64,000 bases of DNA, from NCBI GenBank assembly GCA_021927905.1, contig BLLK01000047.1, positions 3,100,001 to 3,164,000 of the forward strand, given 5' to 3'. Of this stretch, positions 51,329 to 64,000 are shown in pieces. The stretch comes from Chaetoceros tenuissimus. Its lineage: Eukaryota; Bacillariophyta; Thalassiosirophyceae; Chaetocerotales; Chaetocerotaceae. Every line of letters begins with the position of its first letter. The first letter of the stretch is position 1. A program made the position numbers and the translations under genes. The notes under the pieces were generated by a model. It did no database searches. It had not been told where the DNA came from and saw only the letters and a program-made list of their open reading frames with translations.

Positions 51329-54300
51329 ATGTTGCGCAGTACAATAACGCGTAGACCTTGGCTAGCTCAAGTAAGGAATGGAAAGAGGAGCTTGAGATCA
51401 CTCCAAACTCATCAAAATGGTCCAAAGCAACTATCAACTTCAAATTTCTTTACAAATGTAAATTACAGCACGTCGACACCATTGAAAGAGGCACTTCAAG
51501 CTACATCTAACGATGACGACGTTCGTGAGCCTATGCATAATGTACCTGAAAGCATACTTCAACGACATGATCATGCATATGACGGAAAAGATGAATTTTC
51601 AGAACGAAAAAGGCAACTATTGCAATATTTACAAAATTCATTGTGGCATGATGTAGATCACATGATTGAGAAAATTCAACAAAAGAATCCAAAGAGATCT
51701 TTTATCAAGTTCAAAGTGAATGAATCTTCTTGGAAGAGGATCAAAACAGGTAAAAAATTTGTGCAAGAGAAGAATATGATGCGGTTACAAAAACGTAGAG
51801 AACGAAGAGGAGAAGATGAAGGTCTTACTATCGTACCAAGTGGTAACGAAGCATTGAGTGCCATAAATCTAGATGTTGTCGAGGAAAAGATTGCTGATGA
51901 TATTAATAATGATGATGGCCCAACTGAAATACCATCTTTGATGAGCTTACTAGAAGATGACACATTGTTTCCCAGTGCTACCGAGGAAAATGTTGAGGAA
52001 CAAATATCTACAGAAAAGAATCGCCTTTTGGCACTATTTGACGATTCAGATACAAGCACAAGTACTGGAGAAATAGGAAGCAAAACGAGAGAAGATAGCG
52101 CAAGTGTTAATTTGATGAATCTGTTGAATGATGATGGATTTTTCGATAAAATTGAATCTGAATCAAAAGCCAAGTCTGAAAGTAAAAGCCAGTCTAGTCT
52201 GTTGGATTTACTAGACGATGATTTATTTGCAGAAAGTCATGCATCTATGGATTCTGTAGATGCTGAAGTCGATAAATTGACGGGGAATAGTGATAGTAAT
52301 ACATCTCTTCTGGGCCTTTTGAGTGATGGTGAACCAAGTCAACAGGAGTCATCGAAAAATAATGCATCATCATCACTACTCGACTTATTAAATGAAGATG
52401 AATATTTGATGCCCAACACAGACGAAGCAGCGCAGAAGCAAACAATGCCAAATCACAAAGATACTGCCGAAATGAGTCTGCTTGAATTATTAGATAATGA
52501 TGAATGGAATGTAGATGATGTACAAGATACTAGCAATTATGGTTCTACCAACACAAAGATGGATGATTCAATACAGTCTGCAACATCGAAATCATTGGTT
52601 GACTTATTAGATAAAGAAGACTTTGTAGATGTTGAAAGTGATAATTTGCATGCATTTGTGGAAGAAGAAATTGAGGAGGTGATAGAGTCCTTCTCCATAA
52701 AAGATGTAGTTAGTAAGTGTCTTTCTCTTGTCAACATGATGAGAAAGAGCGAATGGGAACTTTGTGACAAGGCAGTAGAAGACATAAAGAGTGCTGTCAA
52801 AGAAAAAGAAGATGAACATGAAGAGGAACTACTTGCAGATCTTTTTGGTGAAAGTGAAGACACGGATGACGTAGTATTTGATCATGATAGGGGAGAGGAA
52901 TTTGTGGAAGAAATCATCAGTGGATCATCTGCAATGAAGTATTCTTTGAAAGCTAACGAATTCAATGTCCTTCTTTTGCACGTTGCCATGTCTTCGAGAA
53001 AAGATAAGGTGGAGAAGCTTCTAGATATCTACTTGCACATGAGTGAACTTGCGAAAAGTGGATGGAAAAATTCAGGACCAAATGGAGATACATATACGAT
53101 TTTATTATCTTTGTTTAATAGTATACCTGGTTGCAGCCAAATTGGATATGAAGTGTACTCACAGATGATGGAAAGAGTAATAGAAGTCTCAAAGGACGGC
53201 TCATCGGTCTTTGATGAAGAAAATCCCTTGCCTTTCAACGAGGAATGCTTAGATGCATCTATGCGAATGCTATTACGACGATTGGATATAGAAGGAGCTG
53301 AAAACTTAATGGACTTCGCTCTTAGTGATGCATCCAATGGTGTAAGGGTCAGTACATCTGCTTTTCAGATCATGCATTTGCTTTACAAGAGTGATAATGA
53401 ACAGGAGAAGGCTTTGAAATTAGTTGATGAATGTATAGAGGTACGTACAAATTTGAAGTTACATACAGTTATCCATTAGAGTTATTTTAATTTGATATTC
53501 TATTTAGGAAAATCGTGGTGATTGGGATGGTATTCATAAATATTTGTTGACAGCAGTCACTTGGCCAAGGCGAAATAGAGAAGGTCGAAAAATAGCAATC
53601 TCATCGTATGTAAATAGTATGATGGATACTTTAGAGGCTTGTGAAGAAAAGGGTATCTATGTGAAACCTGGAGTTTGGAGGAAAATGCTTGGAATATCTC
53701 GATATCTCGTCAATTCTGAAGGTGGTGTTCATTGGTCTTTGGTACATCGTTGCGTTAAATCTCTTACCTCCAGTAGTGAAGTCTCAAGAAATGGGGTAGA
53801 TGAGCGGCTTTTAGTGACCGGGTTGAAAGCTGCCGAGAAAATGAAAGACACGCAATTGGTTGCGGACCTCATATGTGGCGTTACCGATTCGCAATCCTTT
53901 GACTCATATGATATTGATAATCAAAAGCCATCACTAAAAATATCTCCCACAATCTATGCAAAAGCCATAAAATTTTGTGTTGAATTTGGGGCACCAAGTC
54001 AAGCAGACAGGATATTAACACATTCCTCACGTCAACAGTTGCCAACAAAATTTATTGCTGACTTTCACACTATGGTGCTGACAGGATATGCAAAGGCTGG
54101 TGACACAGCAAAGGCAGAACACCTACTACACCAAATGGAAATGGCAGGTATCGAAATCACGTAAGTTCATCATCCCTTACTTTTTCAATGGCTTCAAAGT
54201 TTGGTCCTAATTATATATTTGTTATAGAGAATCTACTCGAAGTGCATACATGTATGCTCTTGCTATCAGCGGTCAACACAATAAAGTCATGACAGATTTA

Positions 54301-54840
54301 GAAACTCTTTTGAACGAGAATATCATAGACAAGAATTCGCTAGGAAAATCTATTTTCCACATGTGTATTATGTCAGCCCTGAAGTCGGAGAAGTATGAAG
54401 ACGTCATAAAAATCAATGAAAAGATGAAAAAGCTTGGAATTGAGTCCACAGCATCATCTTTACAAGGTACGATCATTGCCCAGAAAAAAATGGGTGATCA
54501 TACTGGGTTTGAAAATGTAATCCAAGACGCAATTGAAGATAATGTCGCATTTGACTTGAATGTTTTCCTTCTTGCATCTCGACATTACATCCCAGATATC
54601 CTAGCAAATGGAAAAGGTGATATCGAAGGTATGAGAAAATATTTGCGAAAAATAAGTGAAGAAAAGCCGGATATTTCTTATGAAGCTTTGGAGCTTAGTA
54701 AGAGTTTGAGAGATTGTCTCAGAGAGGAAAATAGGAAGCCTTCCAAAATGAAGAGTCAAATTGTTATTGAGAAGTTGAAGAAAGAATACTGGAGGCAAGC
54801 TATGATAGATGCTATCAATTTGTCGAAAGCACTGAAATAA
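51329..54840 (+). CDS. Mitochondrial PPR-like protein with an array of acidic LLxLLxDD motifs
   Basis: Exons 51329-53440, 53508-54160 and 54228-54840 encode 1125 residues. The N-terminus (MLRSTITRRPWLAQVRNGKR) is basic and Ser-rich, a likely mitochondrial presequence. From residue ~203 to ~432 there are eight short motifs of form S-L-(L/M/V)-x-L-L-x-(D/E)-(D/E) with an aromatic one or two positions later (SLLDLLDDDLF, SLLDLLNEDEY, SLLELLDNDEWN, SLVDLLDKEDF and others). Helical-repeat sequence follows, with pentatricopeptide-type helices most visible at the C-terminus (ATYAKA-like IYAKAIKFCVEFGAPSQAD, GYAKAGDTAKAEHLLHQMEM). PPR proteins bind organellar RNA. The motif array is unexplained and may dock a partner. 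Target RNA unknown. Confidence 0.8.
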
Positions 54841-55193: not shown

Positions 55194-58100
55194 TCAGACT
55201 ATATCTGCGGTAGAAAACGACACCTGTTTTGGAAGGCTAGGCAAAAGTATCTCTTCACTGTTTTGATACGAAGACCTCGAACCTGATCCTGAATTTTTTG
55301 TTTTATTACTTGATGAATCGCTGTTTCCACTATTACATGATCTCCATTGGCATCCTAATGATGTTATCTTTGACGTAGCAATCACCTAAAGAGTGATTAT
55401 ACGAAGCAAGGATTTTCATATTCTTGTCAGCGTTTTCTAAAATTCCAAGAGTAAATGAACATGCTGAAATTTCAAACAAGACTTACCGATAAAACTGCAC
55501 TTCTCAACTTTCGTTTTGCATTATAAGTACAGAATTTCTCCAAATCCATTTCCTGTCCAATTAGGGCTTCATCACTGCATACTATCCATGGACTCTGAGA
55601 TGCTTCGGAGGCAGATAGACGTCTTTTGGGATCGACATTCAGCATACCCATAAGTAATCTCTTCGCTTCTGAAGAGATTCCATCATCATATTCCACAACA
55701 CCGCCTTTAATCATCTCGAAAAGCTCTCTCTGATCTTGCGCAAGAAATGGAGGGTAACCAAAAAGTAGGGTATACATGATAACACCAAAACTCCACATGT
55801 CACTCTTTGTTCCATAGGGAATGCCATTCAATATTTCAGGGCTTACATAAGTTGGAGTTCCACATTGCGTAGTAAGATATTGTCCATCTTTCATCATTTT
55901 GGCAAAACCAAAATCAATAAGTTTGATGTCGGCGTCATCATCTTTACTCACAAGCAAAATATTTTCAGGTTTGAGGTCACGATGGACAATATTGTGTAAA
56001 TCAAGATGTGCAAGGATGCTTAGTAGGGACTTGCATGTATTTCTTGCCTCGATCTCTGTGTAAACTTCCTTTGACGCAATTCTATCAAACAATTCTCCTC
56101 CAAACGCACATTCTGTGATGAGATAAATACGTGTAGAGTCTTGGAAAAAGTCAAAAAGAGTAATGGCATTCTTGTGCTTTTTGAGATGTTGTAGAACAAA
56201 TATTTCGTCTTGAAGATCAGTTCTATCTTCATTGCTCAATTTCTCTGCCTCGATAATTTTTGCAGCATACATTTTCTGATCCTTTACTCCAAACACTTGT
56301 CTCACTGTTGAAAATGATCCAGATCCCAACTATTTACAAATATGTGCATTGTTTGTAAAGACGGCAACTGCGAAGACAAAATATGAACGGTACTTGATCT
56401 TACCATTTTACCAACACTATACAACTTTGCTAAACTTGCTTGCCTGAATTCTAACTCCTCCAGGCCCAAGCGATTCTCTTTTGAACTATTTGAAACTTTT
56501 GGACTACTCGAAGAAACTGTGAATGAGGAAGAGGTGTTGGTATCTTGGTTTTGGTGCCTTGTAGCAGCATCATTTCGATGTTGAGGTTCTCCTGAAGATG
56601 TAAAGTCCGTATTTACAGTAAGTGTAGACAACCTTCTCTGAATCCGGTTAATCTCTCCGACATAATTTCGTGGCGTTTGTGGCCGCGGCAAGTCTGATCC
56701 TATTTCAGAGACAGAATCTCTTGTTGCTTTCTTGTCTTTCCATAAAGTTGACTTCAATTTAGTAAAGGTTTGAAGTGGTTCCTCAGGTCCAAAACAGTCT
56801 ACAAGGACAGAAAAGAAGACAAGACCTCCATACAGAGAAAAGGCTATTGTCACAATAAGTAACTGAGCAAATTTTACAAAGAAAAGTACTTGGCAAAACA
56901 GCATTAGAACAGAAACAGAAAATGTTGTCAATGTTGCTCCCAATATTGAAGTTCCCATACTCATGATGGCTCTCTTTGTTCTTTCTTCTCTAGGGTGCTT
57001 CCCATGGGTATGGCAATATGAATGACTATTTGGACAAGTAGGAAACAGTTGAGAGAAGCACCGTTGATATAGAATGTCTCTGTTTGCTTTTACTTACCTC
57101 AGGTGTATCACGAAATCGGCAGAGAGCCCAACCAGTATAGCAAAACAAATCCACTATGAATTGAAAGAAATGTTAGACCTTGACATGAAACTTCCATAAT
57201 CCAAGACGAAACTTATTTACCTCAAGAAATCCCAACTCCCAACCTAAAAATACCAATGTCGCGGTTGATATCGCAAGAATAAAGCAGATACTCAAAGCGG
57301 AAACAAACGATAGGAACAGAGATTTTGAAGTGAAAAGGACTATCAGTGCACTGAAGGATATGGCAATGTACAAAGAGCTCAAACCAGTAGATCGCATAGT
57401 GGCGTATGTGTCATTCCACCACCACAAACTTGCAGAATGGAAGAAATTTATCCCTGGAGGACTGATAAGCTTTCGTTCATAGTCTTGAAACTCTTCAAAT
57501 TTTTCCCATTCCTGCCGAGTCTCTTCAAGTGGCATGTCAAACCTAGCTTTCGTACCGAGGTTAATAGTCATGATCTTTATTTCATCTTCCCATGAAAGAA
57601 TACTGGAATCGCCGGTGCTCTTACTCCATGCAATCATACATGCTTCAAAATGATTTTCATCCATAGGTAAGGCAATGGCACCATTGCAAATGGATTTGTA
57701 CTCTAGGTCTTGATCACTCTGTGGAAGTTGAGATTGGTCCCAAAGCCATTCTTGAAAATTATTCATGCTACATTTGTAGCCATCTGATTTGTACGCAAAA
57801 GGCAATGCGAATAGACGATCACAAAAAGAGGCCAAATAAAGCTGGGCAGATGCAGAACTAGGATTAAAACTTTCATCTAGCTCCAATGTTGATAAGGAAT
57901 CTGGGAGATTTTTATTCCCTGTATCCTTCGCACTTACACCGAAAATGATTTCCACATTAGACCCAGTAGTCATTTTCAAAATCTCTGATGACAGGAGATT
58001 CTCGTTCTCTATTCTGTTGTGTTCTTCCAAGGGATGAGAGTATGGTAGCATCTGTACAGCTGTATCTTTTGGGGCAGTGATTTGTAGAGCATAGTACGTC

Positions 58101-61100
58101 GCAAATCCAAACAGAATGGTATTCGAAATCAGTAAAATCCATCGGAATTTATGCATGAGTTTGTAGTACCTGTCAAGGATACTAGGGAAATGACCGGACT
58201 GAGAAGATTGAGTATAGTTGTTTCGTTTGCGCTTGCACAAAGGTCCAAGTTGTAAAAAACAATTTTTGGATCCATTCCTTGTCCATTGATCAAGAAGGCA
58301 CAAGGCTGGAAATACCAAGAAAATATTGAGAACATAGTTCATAATGACCATTAATCCACAAAACATCGAAAATGTATAGATTGGAGCTACTGGCGAAACA
58401 CTGTTTGAATTATTAGAGAAAGAACGAGAAGATGAACACAAGACAATTATATCATAGCAAGAGAAAAACTCACCATGTTGCAAAGAAAGCAACGGATGTT
58501 GTCGCCGTTGTGAGTACCATTCCAAATGCGGCCTCTGGCAAAGCAATCATAGCAACATCTTCAGTAGGCGCTGTGTTTCCTAGCTTGGTACGAACTTGTT
58601 TGAACTTTTCCACTGCTACAAATAAATCATCTGCGCCTAAAGCAGCAGATACAAAGAAACCAATCAAATTTAAGAGAGAGAAGAATTTCAGCCCAAATAT
58701 AAATCGGTAGATTGCATACGCCAGTGGAATTGCTAGTATAATCTGCAGTAAACCTACACAGACGAGCCACAATGATCCTGTAAATATTGCAATGGCGACA
58801 ATTACCATGAATGCAGATCCTGCCGCGAAAAACTTTACAAACGATGAAAACTATGAGCTTGTAAAAAGACAAAATGTGTATTAGCATAAACAAAAATGTA
58901 CATACCAAGTCAGCCTTGACAGCCTTGTCAATTGCATGTTCTTCAAAGTTATCGAAACGAGACTCATATATGATCCCTACGTTTTCATCACCCGAACTTA
59001 ATTCTTCAATCTTGTCAAAGAGATCTAAAGTGTCAACTGAAGAAATTGGATATATCGAGGCCGAATATTTGAGAAAAGAATTGCCTTTAACGCCAAAATC
59101 CTTGTCTACCATCATTGCCGAAAATTCTAGTGGACATGTCATGTTTTCAACAATCTCCCCAAGATTATCCTTTAGTTCATTTGCACAATCTAGAAGCTGC
59201 TGGGTAAAGGTATCCTGTACATCCTGATACACTTGAGCTAAGTCATCGCAAGGCAGATGATTGGAATCACCAATGTATGATCTAATCACCCTTACTAAAG
59301 AAAGAGGGAATGAACAAGTTGGATTGGCACTAGTACAGTAGTTATCACAGAGCCCCTCACTTTCGAGGATGGCTATATTAGAAACTTCAGCTTTGCAGAT
59401 ACTCCTTACAGCAGTAGGGTCTAGCAAAGATGCATCCTTTGCCTCCAGTAGCGCAACCATGTTGTTCTGCTTGAACAAAAGTTCCGATGAATACCAGTGT
59501 TCTTCACTGCATTCACCTTCAAGAGATTTTGATGGAAGCTGCAATTGAGAAGCCACTTTATTCATTGGTAAAGAGAAGCGGCGCGAAAGCTGATCTTTGA
59601 TTGGGAAATAACCCTCTACAACGCTTGATGTCATTTCTTCCCAATAAACTCCACTTCCTTCCTGAAAGAGAATATTGGTATTGTTACGTATAAGATCTGC
59701 CTGCATAGCACGTGATCCAATCATTGTCTCTCTAGACTTCCACCCTGTTCATTCAACAATGTGAATTCGATGGATTAAAGTAAGATTGTATTTATATGAC
59801 ATCCATATCACTCACCTTTCTTATTTTCCTTCACAAGTTCAAAGCCACTGAAGAATACACATGTGAGGGATATTACCAATGTAAAAAGAAGAGTGCTAAT
59901 AATATACACTAATGGATGTGCAACCATATTCCTCACAACTCTCTTTGTTATCTGATTTTTGCTATGTGATGATAAAGAGAAATCATCATCACGATCGTCA
60001 ACAATGTTATCTTGAAGGCGACTATTCTTTCTCTCAAGTGTACCTTCTTTCACTTCCTTCCTTATCTGCTGTCTACGTAAAAACTCCTCATCAAATATAC
60101 TTTTCATACTGCTTCTGCTTTTTGACTTCGTAGACTGAAATATTCTTCTTTTATCTTTGCTATCATTGATTACACGACGACTGGGACTTTGCAATAAATT
60201 CTTCATCGTTGTCTTTAACTGGAGACGAAGACCAGGATTATTTCTAATCTCTTTTCTCACATGATTTTCAAGATTTGCAATTTTGTAAATATCTGACTCC
60301 GCGGCGGAGGCAGTTTTGATGATATCCATGGGAGGTAAGATTCTTTGGAAATGAAGACTTGGGCTGTGAACTCGAGCAAGGTCGATAGCTCTGTATGCAA
60401 ATCGATCTTGAGAGGGATCTAGGCCAATGGAAAGAATTGTTCCAAACTCGCGACCAGGGTAAAGTCTCTTCGCTTCAGCAATCGCCAAAGATACTGGGCA
60501 GTTGCATGATAACCCTCCATCACATAAAGTATATGTCTCGTCATCAATTTCTACCCGGACTCGATCAAAGGCAACAGGTGCGCTACTAGTTCCTTGGATT
60601 GCTTCACTAAGCTTTAGTGAGCTGGTTCCTTTGATCAACTCGTTCTCTTGAGTTTGGATATCATACGTGCGTAAGAGAAAAGGTTTTGGCTTCTCTCCTT
60701 TTTTCAAATCCGAGTCTGAAATAGCTACTGCAACAGCAAAAGCTTTCAATCCAATTTCATTTCGGAGCATAGCCTTCTTACCAAAAACTTTTTCTGCGAA
60801 GGCAGCTGGTTGTTGAGTTGCCTTTGTTGCGCTACCTGTAAACATCAGACGAAAAAGATTCAGATTAGCAAAAGCGTGTTCTCTTGCCATATCCAGAAAA
60901 TAAGTTCCGTTAATGATCGCATCATCACTGTTCAAAAGAAGGATTTAGAGGTAAGAATTGATATTTTTAACTGTTCGATGAACGAACTCGACTCACGTTG
61001 TTGAAGTCCTATTTGCTGTTAATGCTGCACATCCTCCTACCGAAGTTCCAGCAATGAGATCGAACTTTGAAAGAAAATCGTTTTGTGCTCCCATTGATTG

Positions 61101-61425
61101 ATAAAGAGATTCAATTTCTTCCACCATCGAAATCGTTGCATATCCTAATAAAAACATCAACAATATGATTAGAATTAGTAGCTTGAAAATACGAGTTAAA
61201 ACTTTTAGACATACCTTTGGCTCCACCTCCATCCAAGCAAATGATATTGATTGGTTCACTATTATCATCACTTGTTTGAGGGTTGTATTTTGAAGGTGCT
61301 TGGGACTTATTCTTTATCTCATTTTCAGCATATTTCTCCATCATTTCAAGTACTTCATTATGGGCTTCTTCATACTGGAACACCTGCTTGATCCAATACC
61401 AAGTAGACGGTCCTTTTCGGACCAT
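55194..61425 (-). CDS. Triple fusion: patatin phospholipase + Patched/Dispatched-like RND transporter + CaMK-like kinase
   Basis: Ten exons (minus): 61425-61215, 61144-60997, 60927-59816, 59744-58906, 58850-58474, 58400-57221, 57153-57098, 57025-56404, 56329-55487, 55385-55194. They sum to 5580 nt, 1859 residues, all phases fitting. Patatin (about 60-260): oxyanion DGGGAKG (65-71), nucleophile elbow GTSVGG (Ser105), catalytic DGG (Asp256). RND (about 455-1375): first span VYIISTLLFTLVISL, an extracytoplasmic loop, GADD (842-845) in the SSD-like spans, cytosolic loop, second loop, VGLSADF (Asp1302) and the MGTSILGATLTTF...CFGP finish. These match Patched/Dispatched/NPC1, where the acidic residues conduct protons. 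Kinase (about 1508-1775): LGSGSFSTV, Lys1539, HRDLKPEN (1631-), DFG (1654-), SPE; Ser-rich tail. Lipid or sterol cleavage, transport and phosphorylation may be linked at a membrane; substrates are unknown. Confidence 0.9.
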
Positions 61426-62269: not shown

Positions 62270-64000
62270 TTATTTCGAATTTATCCATTTATAATATCGA
62301 CCTAAAATGAATGCGTTTTCTAGAGCAGTGACATGGAGATGGTGTTGATGAAGTAAATGACCTCCATTGTCCTCAATATGTAGGTGGACCGATGACTCTG
62401 GACTATAGTTCTTAATTTTTTGAAAATAAGCCATTGCATTTGTAGGTGGTACGTGCTGATCATCTAATGCAGAGACCAGAAGCATGGAAGGGTAAAGATG
62501 ATCCGAAATATTATGCACTGGGCAATATGATTCGATAACGGAGCAGTTTGTGTTTATTCGTGGGTCTAAAAACTCATCATATTCATGCTGGGTCAAGAAA
62601 AGTGCATCATTCAGCATAGTGTTTCTGACATCAAGAAATGCATTTCTCAATACAACGGCATCAAACAATGTCGGGTGTTTATTAATAGCTGCTCCCAAAA
62701 TGATACCTCCCGCTGAGAATGCTCGTGAGGCAATGAAGGGTTTGGATGATATCTCTGAAAATTCATGTATCAGACTGTTCTTCGAAACATAATCCGCAGC
62801 TAAGATGAAATCTTCAATGCTATTATCTTTTTTGTGTAGACGCCCTTCTTCATGCCAAAGTGTCCCAAGTTCTCGTCCTCCTCTACAATGACAGTAAACC
62901 TATTTAGGGCGTATGTATGAGATTTTGTATTATAAAAATTTAAAAATAAAGTGTGTAATGCAGACTTCAGCTTACCACAACAAACCCTCTATCTAGCAAA
63001 GGAGCAATAGTTGGGTCAAAGTTAAGATTCAAGTTTTTCCCATAACAACCATATCCAATCAAGAGAATTGGTCTTGCAGCAGTATTGAATTCACTACGTC
63101 GATGAACAATGGTTAGAGGTATATTGACTTCATCTCGGCCTGAAATCAATATCCGACGAGAGATATAGTCTTCTCCCTTGGATTGTTTGCCTATCTTCAT
63201 CTGCTTTGATTCAAAATTATACTCAGCAGTCACCGGTTCTTGTGCGGGATTCTCTATTTGGACTTTGATAGACGATGAATGGAAATTCATATTTCCAGCA
63301 GCTGTTATGATTGACAAGTGATCATCTTCATTCGCAGTAATAGCAGTCATTGGTAATATCGTCTCACTTAAATCAGATCTATTCCTAATCCGCATTCTCT
63401 GCTTGGCATCAAAAAGCGACCTCTCATACAAACACAGATATTCAGAAAAAATGTCAATGTCCTCGATGAAAAAGCCTCCCGATGTTTTGTCACTGCTTTT
63501 TATTTTGTTCGGAAAGGAATCAAGTAAAGGGAGGTCTTTGAACTTGGCTTCGAAAACCGATAAATCTCTGTCAAGGCCAAGTTTTTGATCATCTCCTTCG
63601 AATTCGGAAGTTGTATGTGCCATTATAAAAATATCATCATCCTTTCCACAGTCAACGAAGTATTGCACTCCTTTCTGTCGAAGTCGAACAAGTTGCATCT
63701 TCAAATCTACTCCTATGAGATGAATTTCATTGCTAGACTTTGACGATGAATGGATTGCAACATATTGACAACCCTTTGTCCTTTGTATATCTACAAAATG
63801 CGACCCATCATCATCACGCAGGAGCAATTCTGGTTTCGAATGCGAAAACCCAGAATCCTCCTTATCAAACAAAATAGCTGCGAAAACATTAGCTGGTCTC
63901 CCTAAATGGTCACATGTAGTAAAGTATATTGAATGATATTCTTCTTCTCCATCTTTTATTGTAGGTCCGAATTCAATATTATGAACATTCACTAAACTTT
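62270..64000 (-). CDS. Prolyl oligopeptidase-family serine peptidase (5' partial)
   Basis: Exon 62976-64000 continues beyond the right edge; the last exon is 62270-62899 (76-nt phase-0 intron, GTAAG...ATAG). The spliced sequence shows the S9 peptidase catalytic domain: LDRGFVVVYCHCRGGRELG, LGTLWHEEGR, nucleophile AFSAGG, VLRNAFLDV, acid SALDDQHVP and the catalytic His in EDNGGHLLHQ. The nucleophile elbow is AFSAGG rather than the usual GGSAGG, which keeps the Ser. Upstream lies the beta-propeller (ECGPTIKDG-like region and others), as in oligopeptidase B or prolyl oligopeptidase. These enzymes cut short peptides after Pro or basic residues. About 550 residues are visible; the start lies outside the window. 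Confidence 0.85.

Follow-up and report, generated by a model that had tools for sequence, protein, structure and literature searches.

A single gene of the diatom Chaetoceros tenuissimus encodes patatin, Dispatched-like RND and CaMK-like kinase modules in one predicted membrane protein

Diatoms release fatty-acid-derived signals and defences, and to our knowledge it is not established how diatom lipids exit the cell or how their release is timed. Dispatched, in turn, is best known for the release of lipidated protein. The ion-coupling positions of DISP1 are Asp572, Asp573 and Asp1051 (PMC7362390, PMC8630017); these three Asp are conserved and both the N- and C-terminal segments of Disp1 are cytoplasmic (PMC8630017), and the protein needs a sodium gradient (PMC9222137). 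Fatty acid precursors of oxylipins are freed by diatom patatin-like hydrolases (PMC6723882). A membrane module and a phosphorylating enzyme are found in one chain in the GPCR-PIPK fusions of oomycetes and Dictyostelium (PMC12223298), whose modules differ throughout from those of the gene reported here, so that the parallel is an analogy only. All three parts of this gene belong to known families. Their combination is undescribed in the literature searched, in which we found neither the patatin-RND-kinase architecture nor any patatin-RND or RND-kinase fusion; this agrees with the initial annotation, which knew of no described protein with this order, the scope of the search being papers rather than eukaryotic protein databases.

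The gene lies on the minus strand of a 64-kb stretch of the C. tenuissimus genome (the window; G000:C34:3100001-3164000; G+C 38.9%). Rebuilt from the sequence, it runs from 61425 to 55194 in ten exons (61425-61215, 61144-60997, 60927-59816, 59744-58906, 58832-58474, 58400-57221, 57153-57098, 57025-56404, 56329-55487 and 55385-55194), which form an 1853-aa frame without internal stop that closes with a TGA at 55194 and predicts a protein of about 205 kDa. The nine introns are 67-101 nt long and all GT-AG. The exon coordinates first proposed proved correct, and we looked for an internal stop or an assembly join and saw neither. For intron 4, either of two acceptors keeps the frame, 58832 or 58850; the latter was not favoured because the homologous acceptor in the paralog described below supports 58832; the paralog intron ends exactly where 58832 aligns (DL/FFAAGS vs DL/ILAACS, the slash marking the splice junction). 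Just upstream of the gene, on the same strand, ends a prolyl oligopeptidase frame (62270-62899, minus; Peptidase_S9, E 1e-32), and a longer frame at 62967-63998 is probably part of the same protein. A convergent gene downstream (53508-54840, plus) weakly resembles PPR repeats, its match staying under the curated cut-off.

The patatin domain (aa 62-269; 60480-61242, minus) is spread over exons 1-3 and was assigned from its Pfam match (PF01734, E 1.1e-16, 62.1 bits against a cut-off of 27.7), PDB relatives and motif positions. It carries the Gly-rich oxyanion loop of the family (DGGGAKG at aa 65), the nucleophile of the GxSxG motif, Ser105 in GTSVGG (61043-61041), and the Asp of the DG[GA] dyad motif, Asp256 in CDGG (60521-60519), both dyad residues standing where they had been claimed. 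Judged by these motifs, the module is an intact predicted hydrolase. Among solved structures it resembles the bacterial CBASS phospholipases CapV (E 1.3e-9), with weaker matches to PLA2G6 and patatin-17. Set by description beside LAH1 of Pseudo-nitzschia, one of the diatom patatin-like lipolytic acyl hydrolases, it shares the patatin motifs and the Ser-Asp dyad, a likeness that would make acyl hydrolysis of membrane lipids plausible (PMC6723882), and differs from diatom patatins of this type in sharing its chain with a transporter and a kinase. Within the linker that follows, inside exon 3, the block FDEEFLRRQQIRKEVKEGTLERKNSRL (aa 398-424; 60015-60095, minus) is near-identical in the paralog (FDEEFLRRQ.IRKEVKEGTL.RKNSRL in both copies) despite saturated synonymous sites.

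The RND module spans aa about 453-1382 (56785-59930, minus), as placed by hmmsearch with DISP1, Pfam and hydropathy. It has the architecture of Dispatched, with 12 transmembrane (TM) helices, this count being a prediction, a sterol-sensing domain (SSD) in TM2-6 and two large, conserved, Cys-containing ectodomains. A profile of the RND module, made from four C. tenuissimus genes, matched DISP1 in hmmsearch with E 2.8e-84 from ectodomain 1 to TM12 (profile 167-950), far more strongly than NPC1L1 (4e-13), NPC1 (7e-13) or Patched-1 (PTCH1; 5e-12). As the PTCH1 match falls about 70 orders of magnitude behind that to DISP1, the original label of Patched/Dispatched-like is borne out for Dispatched and dropped for Patched, to which the closest kinship does not lie. 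The GADD of TM4 (aa 836-839; 58626-58637, minus) aligns with that of DISP1 (Asp572/Asp573; PMC8630017), and Asp1296 of TM10 (57115-57117, minus), in GLSADF beginning at aa 1292, aligns with Asp1051 in GLSVDF of DISP1 (PMC7362390, PMC8630017). The acids initially pointed out in GADD and GLSxD are thus both present, and all three ion-coupling positions are kept. What sets the module apart from DISP1 is its place between a patatin and a kinase; moreover, a diatom would not be expected to have Hedgehog. Relatives of the module were found neither in viral contigs nor in prokaryote contigs.

Pfam matched this module as Sterol-sensing (aa 792-928, E 3.7e-8) and as Patched SSD (aa 785-923, E 1.4e-7); like the Patatin and Pkinase matches, both exceed the curated cut-offs. 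For all three modules, sequence matches suffice to assign the fold. These matches and the two conserved ectodomains would also suit an RND unit that senses a sterol or lipid instead of exporting it, the ligand of the SSD altering the attached patatin and kinase, so that the protein would be a receptor with two enzyme outputs; receptor-enzyme fusions are known, GPCR-PIPK in oomycetes being one (PMC12223298). We regard a sensor of this kind as somewhat doubtful, as the ion-coupling Asp triad is kept in both copies of the fusion and in stand-alone RND relatives, which suggests active transport.

The protein kinase domain (aa 1504-1758; 55583-56421, minus; Pfam PF00069, E 6.3e-70) is split by intron 8 just before its Gly-rich loop and finds its best match in CaMKII delta (E 9.5e-65). 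The motifs of the CAMK group are all present (LGSGSF, Lys1533, HRD with Asp1627, DFG with Asp1648, and SPE), among them the Lys, HRD and DFG named in the initial annotation, and by its motifs this is an intact CaMK-type kinase. The alignment with CaMKII delta extends through the regulatory segment (FNARRKLKGAILTT vs YNAKRKLRSAVLSV), where YNAKRKLRSAVLSVIATSKITSLG (aa about 1778-1801; 55352-55525, minus), which spans intron 9 (55486-55386), aligns with CaMKII FNARRKLKGAILTTMLAT as a putative autoinhibitory and calmodulin-binding-like segment. The kinase resembles CaMKII/CaMKI-type enzymes in its catalytic motifs and in a FNARRKLKGAILTT-like, putatively regulatory segment. Unlike CaMKII, it has Met at the aligned position of Thr286, it is attached to a membrane transporter, and no association (hub) domain was found among the Pfam matches of the window protein. 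Elsewhere in the genome, two CAMK-like kinases (L041:2302-3081 and 6792-6043; G000:C59) have an unusual catalytic loop, HRDxRxEN in place of the usual HRDLKxEN, and in one of them DFE replaces DFG.

When the genome (41,027,912 bases in 68 contigs) was searched with the three modules separately, only one other place contained them all, at G000:C34:2903457-2897127, on the same contig and strand as the window gene and 0.26 Mb away. This paralog has ten exons, 1888 aa, no stop and the same Pfam order, and its protein is 57% identical to that of the window. The two genes have introns at common sites in eight of nine cases, each copy having one intron that is missing from the other. Synonymous sites are saturated between them (pS 0.76), and pN/pS ranges from 0.18 (patatin core) through 0.22 (TM8-12), 0.25 (TM2-6) and 0.37 (patatin-RND linker) to 0.40 (kinase); the patatin core, 78% identical, is among the most constrained parts, and the RND-kinase linker, at 16% identity, is not conserved. 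The same module order in a paralog so diverged at synonymous sites indicates that the fusion is old and has been kept by selection; from the saturation, other Chaetoceros species would be expected to carry it too. The paralog kinase (L021:2852-2004, C34 about 2.898 Mb) has GFS in place of DFG and LEYGAFS in its Gly loop where the window copy has LGSGSFS, and its calmodulin-like regulatory segment has decayed. The fusion protein is otherwise intact, with what is probably a pseudokinase as its third module, so kinase activity would not be essential in every copy.

One intron departs from the divergence of the rest. Intron 6 (57220-57154; L021:3736-3670 in the paralog; both minus) is 88% identical between the copies, against 38-53% for the other introns common to both, and the cause may be gene conversion over a short stretch or constraint on the intron. 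The tract of similarity is about 140 nt long and includes the flanking exon ends, and retention of the intron would end both proteins in a similar short tail (EVN...LGLWKFH..V, then stop). A search for a functional RNA in intron 6 gave no Rfam match, no unusual fold and no further copies in the genome.

Stand-alone relatives of each module are present in the same genome. Patatins at C43, C34:4.28 Mb, C32 and other places are about 32-41% identical to the fused module, two RND genes at C14:921152 and C19:659590 (42% and 37% identical in the module) have neither patatin nor kinase, and a CaMK gene at C16:2391096 is 54-55% identical to the fused kinases. Two introns of the C16 gene, one preceding the Gly-rich loop and the other within the regulatory segment, match those of the fused kinases in position. 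A kinase tree pairs the two fused kinases as sisters (100/98) and places C16 beside them with weaker support (82/89). The simplest reading of these sequences is that a kinase gene resembling C16 was taken up by the fusion a single time, exon structure included, before the duplication.

The stand-alone RND paralogs, together with the likely pseudokinase and the 16% identity of the RND-kinase linker, would fit a fusion that serves mainly for targeting or scaffolding, with transport as its core, a patatin that supplies or remodels local lipid, and a kinase that is regulatory and partly non-catalytic. Such a division of roles is unlikely: the patatin core is highly constrained and the window kinase keeps every catalytic motif.

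Both module boundaries fall within single exons. Exon 3 encodes TM1 of the transporter as well as the active-site Asp of the patatin, and exon 8 holds the first kinase strand (LYSVGKM) together with the RND-kinase linker and the last TM helices. Exon 9 opens with the Gly-rich loop and offers no Met ahead of it; because intron 8 cuts the first kinase strand, the kinase exon cannot stand alone, and a separate kinase transcript would miss that strand. In the paralog, the extra intron falls after the patatin Asp and still leaves the patatin C-terminus, linker and TM1 together in a single exon; at the kinase, the junction matches that of the window gene. A chance or mis-joined gene model is ruled out by the paralog and the common intron positions, and an assembly join by the identical mis-joining that two diverged copies would need. 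That two or three adjacent genes were mistakenly read together, for which a possible internal promoter in exon 3, for instance before Met454, could be invoked, is highly improbable given junctions that lie within exons, the module order and intron sites shared with the paralog, and the conserved linker block. The claim of one gene with the order patatin, RND, kinase is strongly supported by the paralog, the common introns and purifying selection in all modules, and on this genomic evidence, combining the splice model with a full-length paralog, we consider it confirmed that the three are encoded by one gene (55194-61425, minus) as one large predicted membrane protein.

For this protein we tentatively propose, as the most likely of the readings considered, that one chain joins lipid cleavage, lipid movement and signalling of the Ca2+/calmodulin type, cleavage and export following a Ca2+ signal. 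The N- and C-terminal segments of Disp1 being cytoplasmic (PMC8630017), both the patatin and the kinase would by analogy face the cytosol. The patatin would act on the cytosolic side, cutting acyl chains off membrane lipids; the RND unit would take up the freed fatty acid, a lysolipid or another lipid and, driven by Na+ (or H+), carry it to the outer leaflet or release it from the cell; and the kinase, once released by Ca2+/calmodulin, would phosphorylate linkers of its own protein or nearby targets. Lipid cleavage and export would thereby be tied to a Ca2+ signal, such as that of wounding or stress. The sequence itself establishes that the modules are present and intact, stand in this order and are conserved; from it we infer the substrate, the direction of transport, calmodulin binding and the coupling of the modules as set out here, and export of free lipid by a Dispatched-like unit would be an extrapolation from DISP1. 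The self-contained lipid-signal system suggested at the outset is plausible on these terms.

As a natural fusion, the gene is a direct clue, by the Rosetta-stone argument, that patatin, Dispatched-like and CaMK proteins encoded separately may cooperate, and it offers a concrete gene for knock-out. A Dispatched-like transporter in an alga would also allow work on an ancestral substrate of Dispatched where Hedgehog plays no part. In its fullest form, which we think quite unlikely, the proposal would make this diatom family a self-contained Ca2+-gated machine that, in a single chain, cleaves membrane lipids, drives lipid export with Na+/H+ and phosphorylates in response to Ca2+/calmodulin, and that releases a lipid messenger. 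If that were true, the messenger might be, for example, an oxylipin precursor, and the family would provide a Dispatched-type exporter outside animals.
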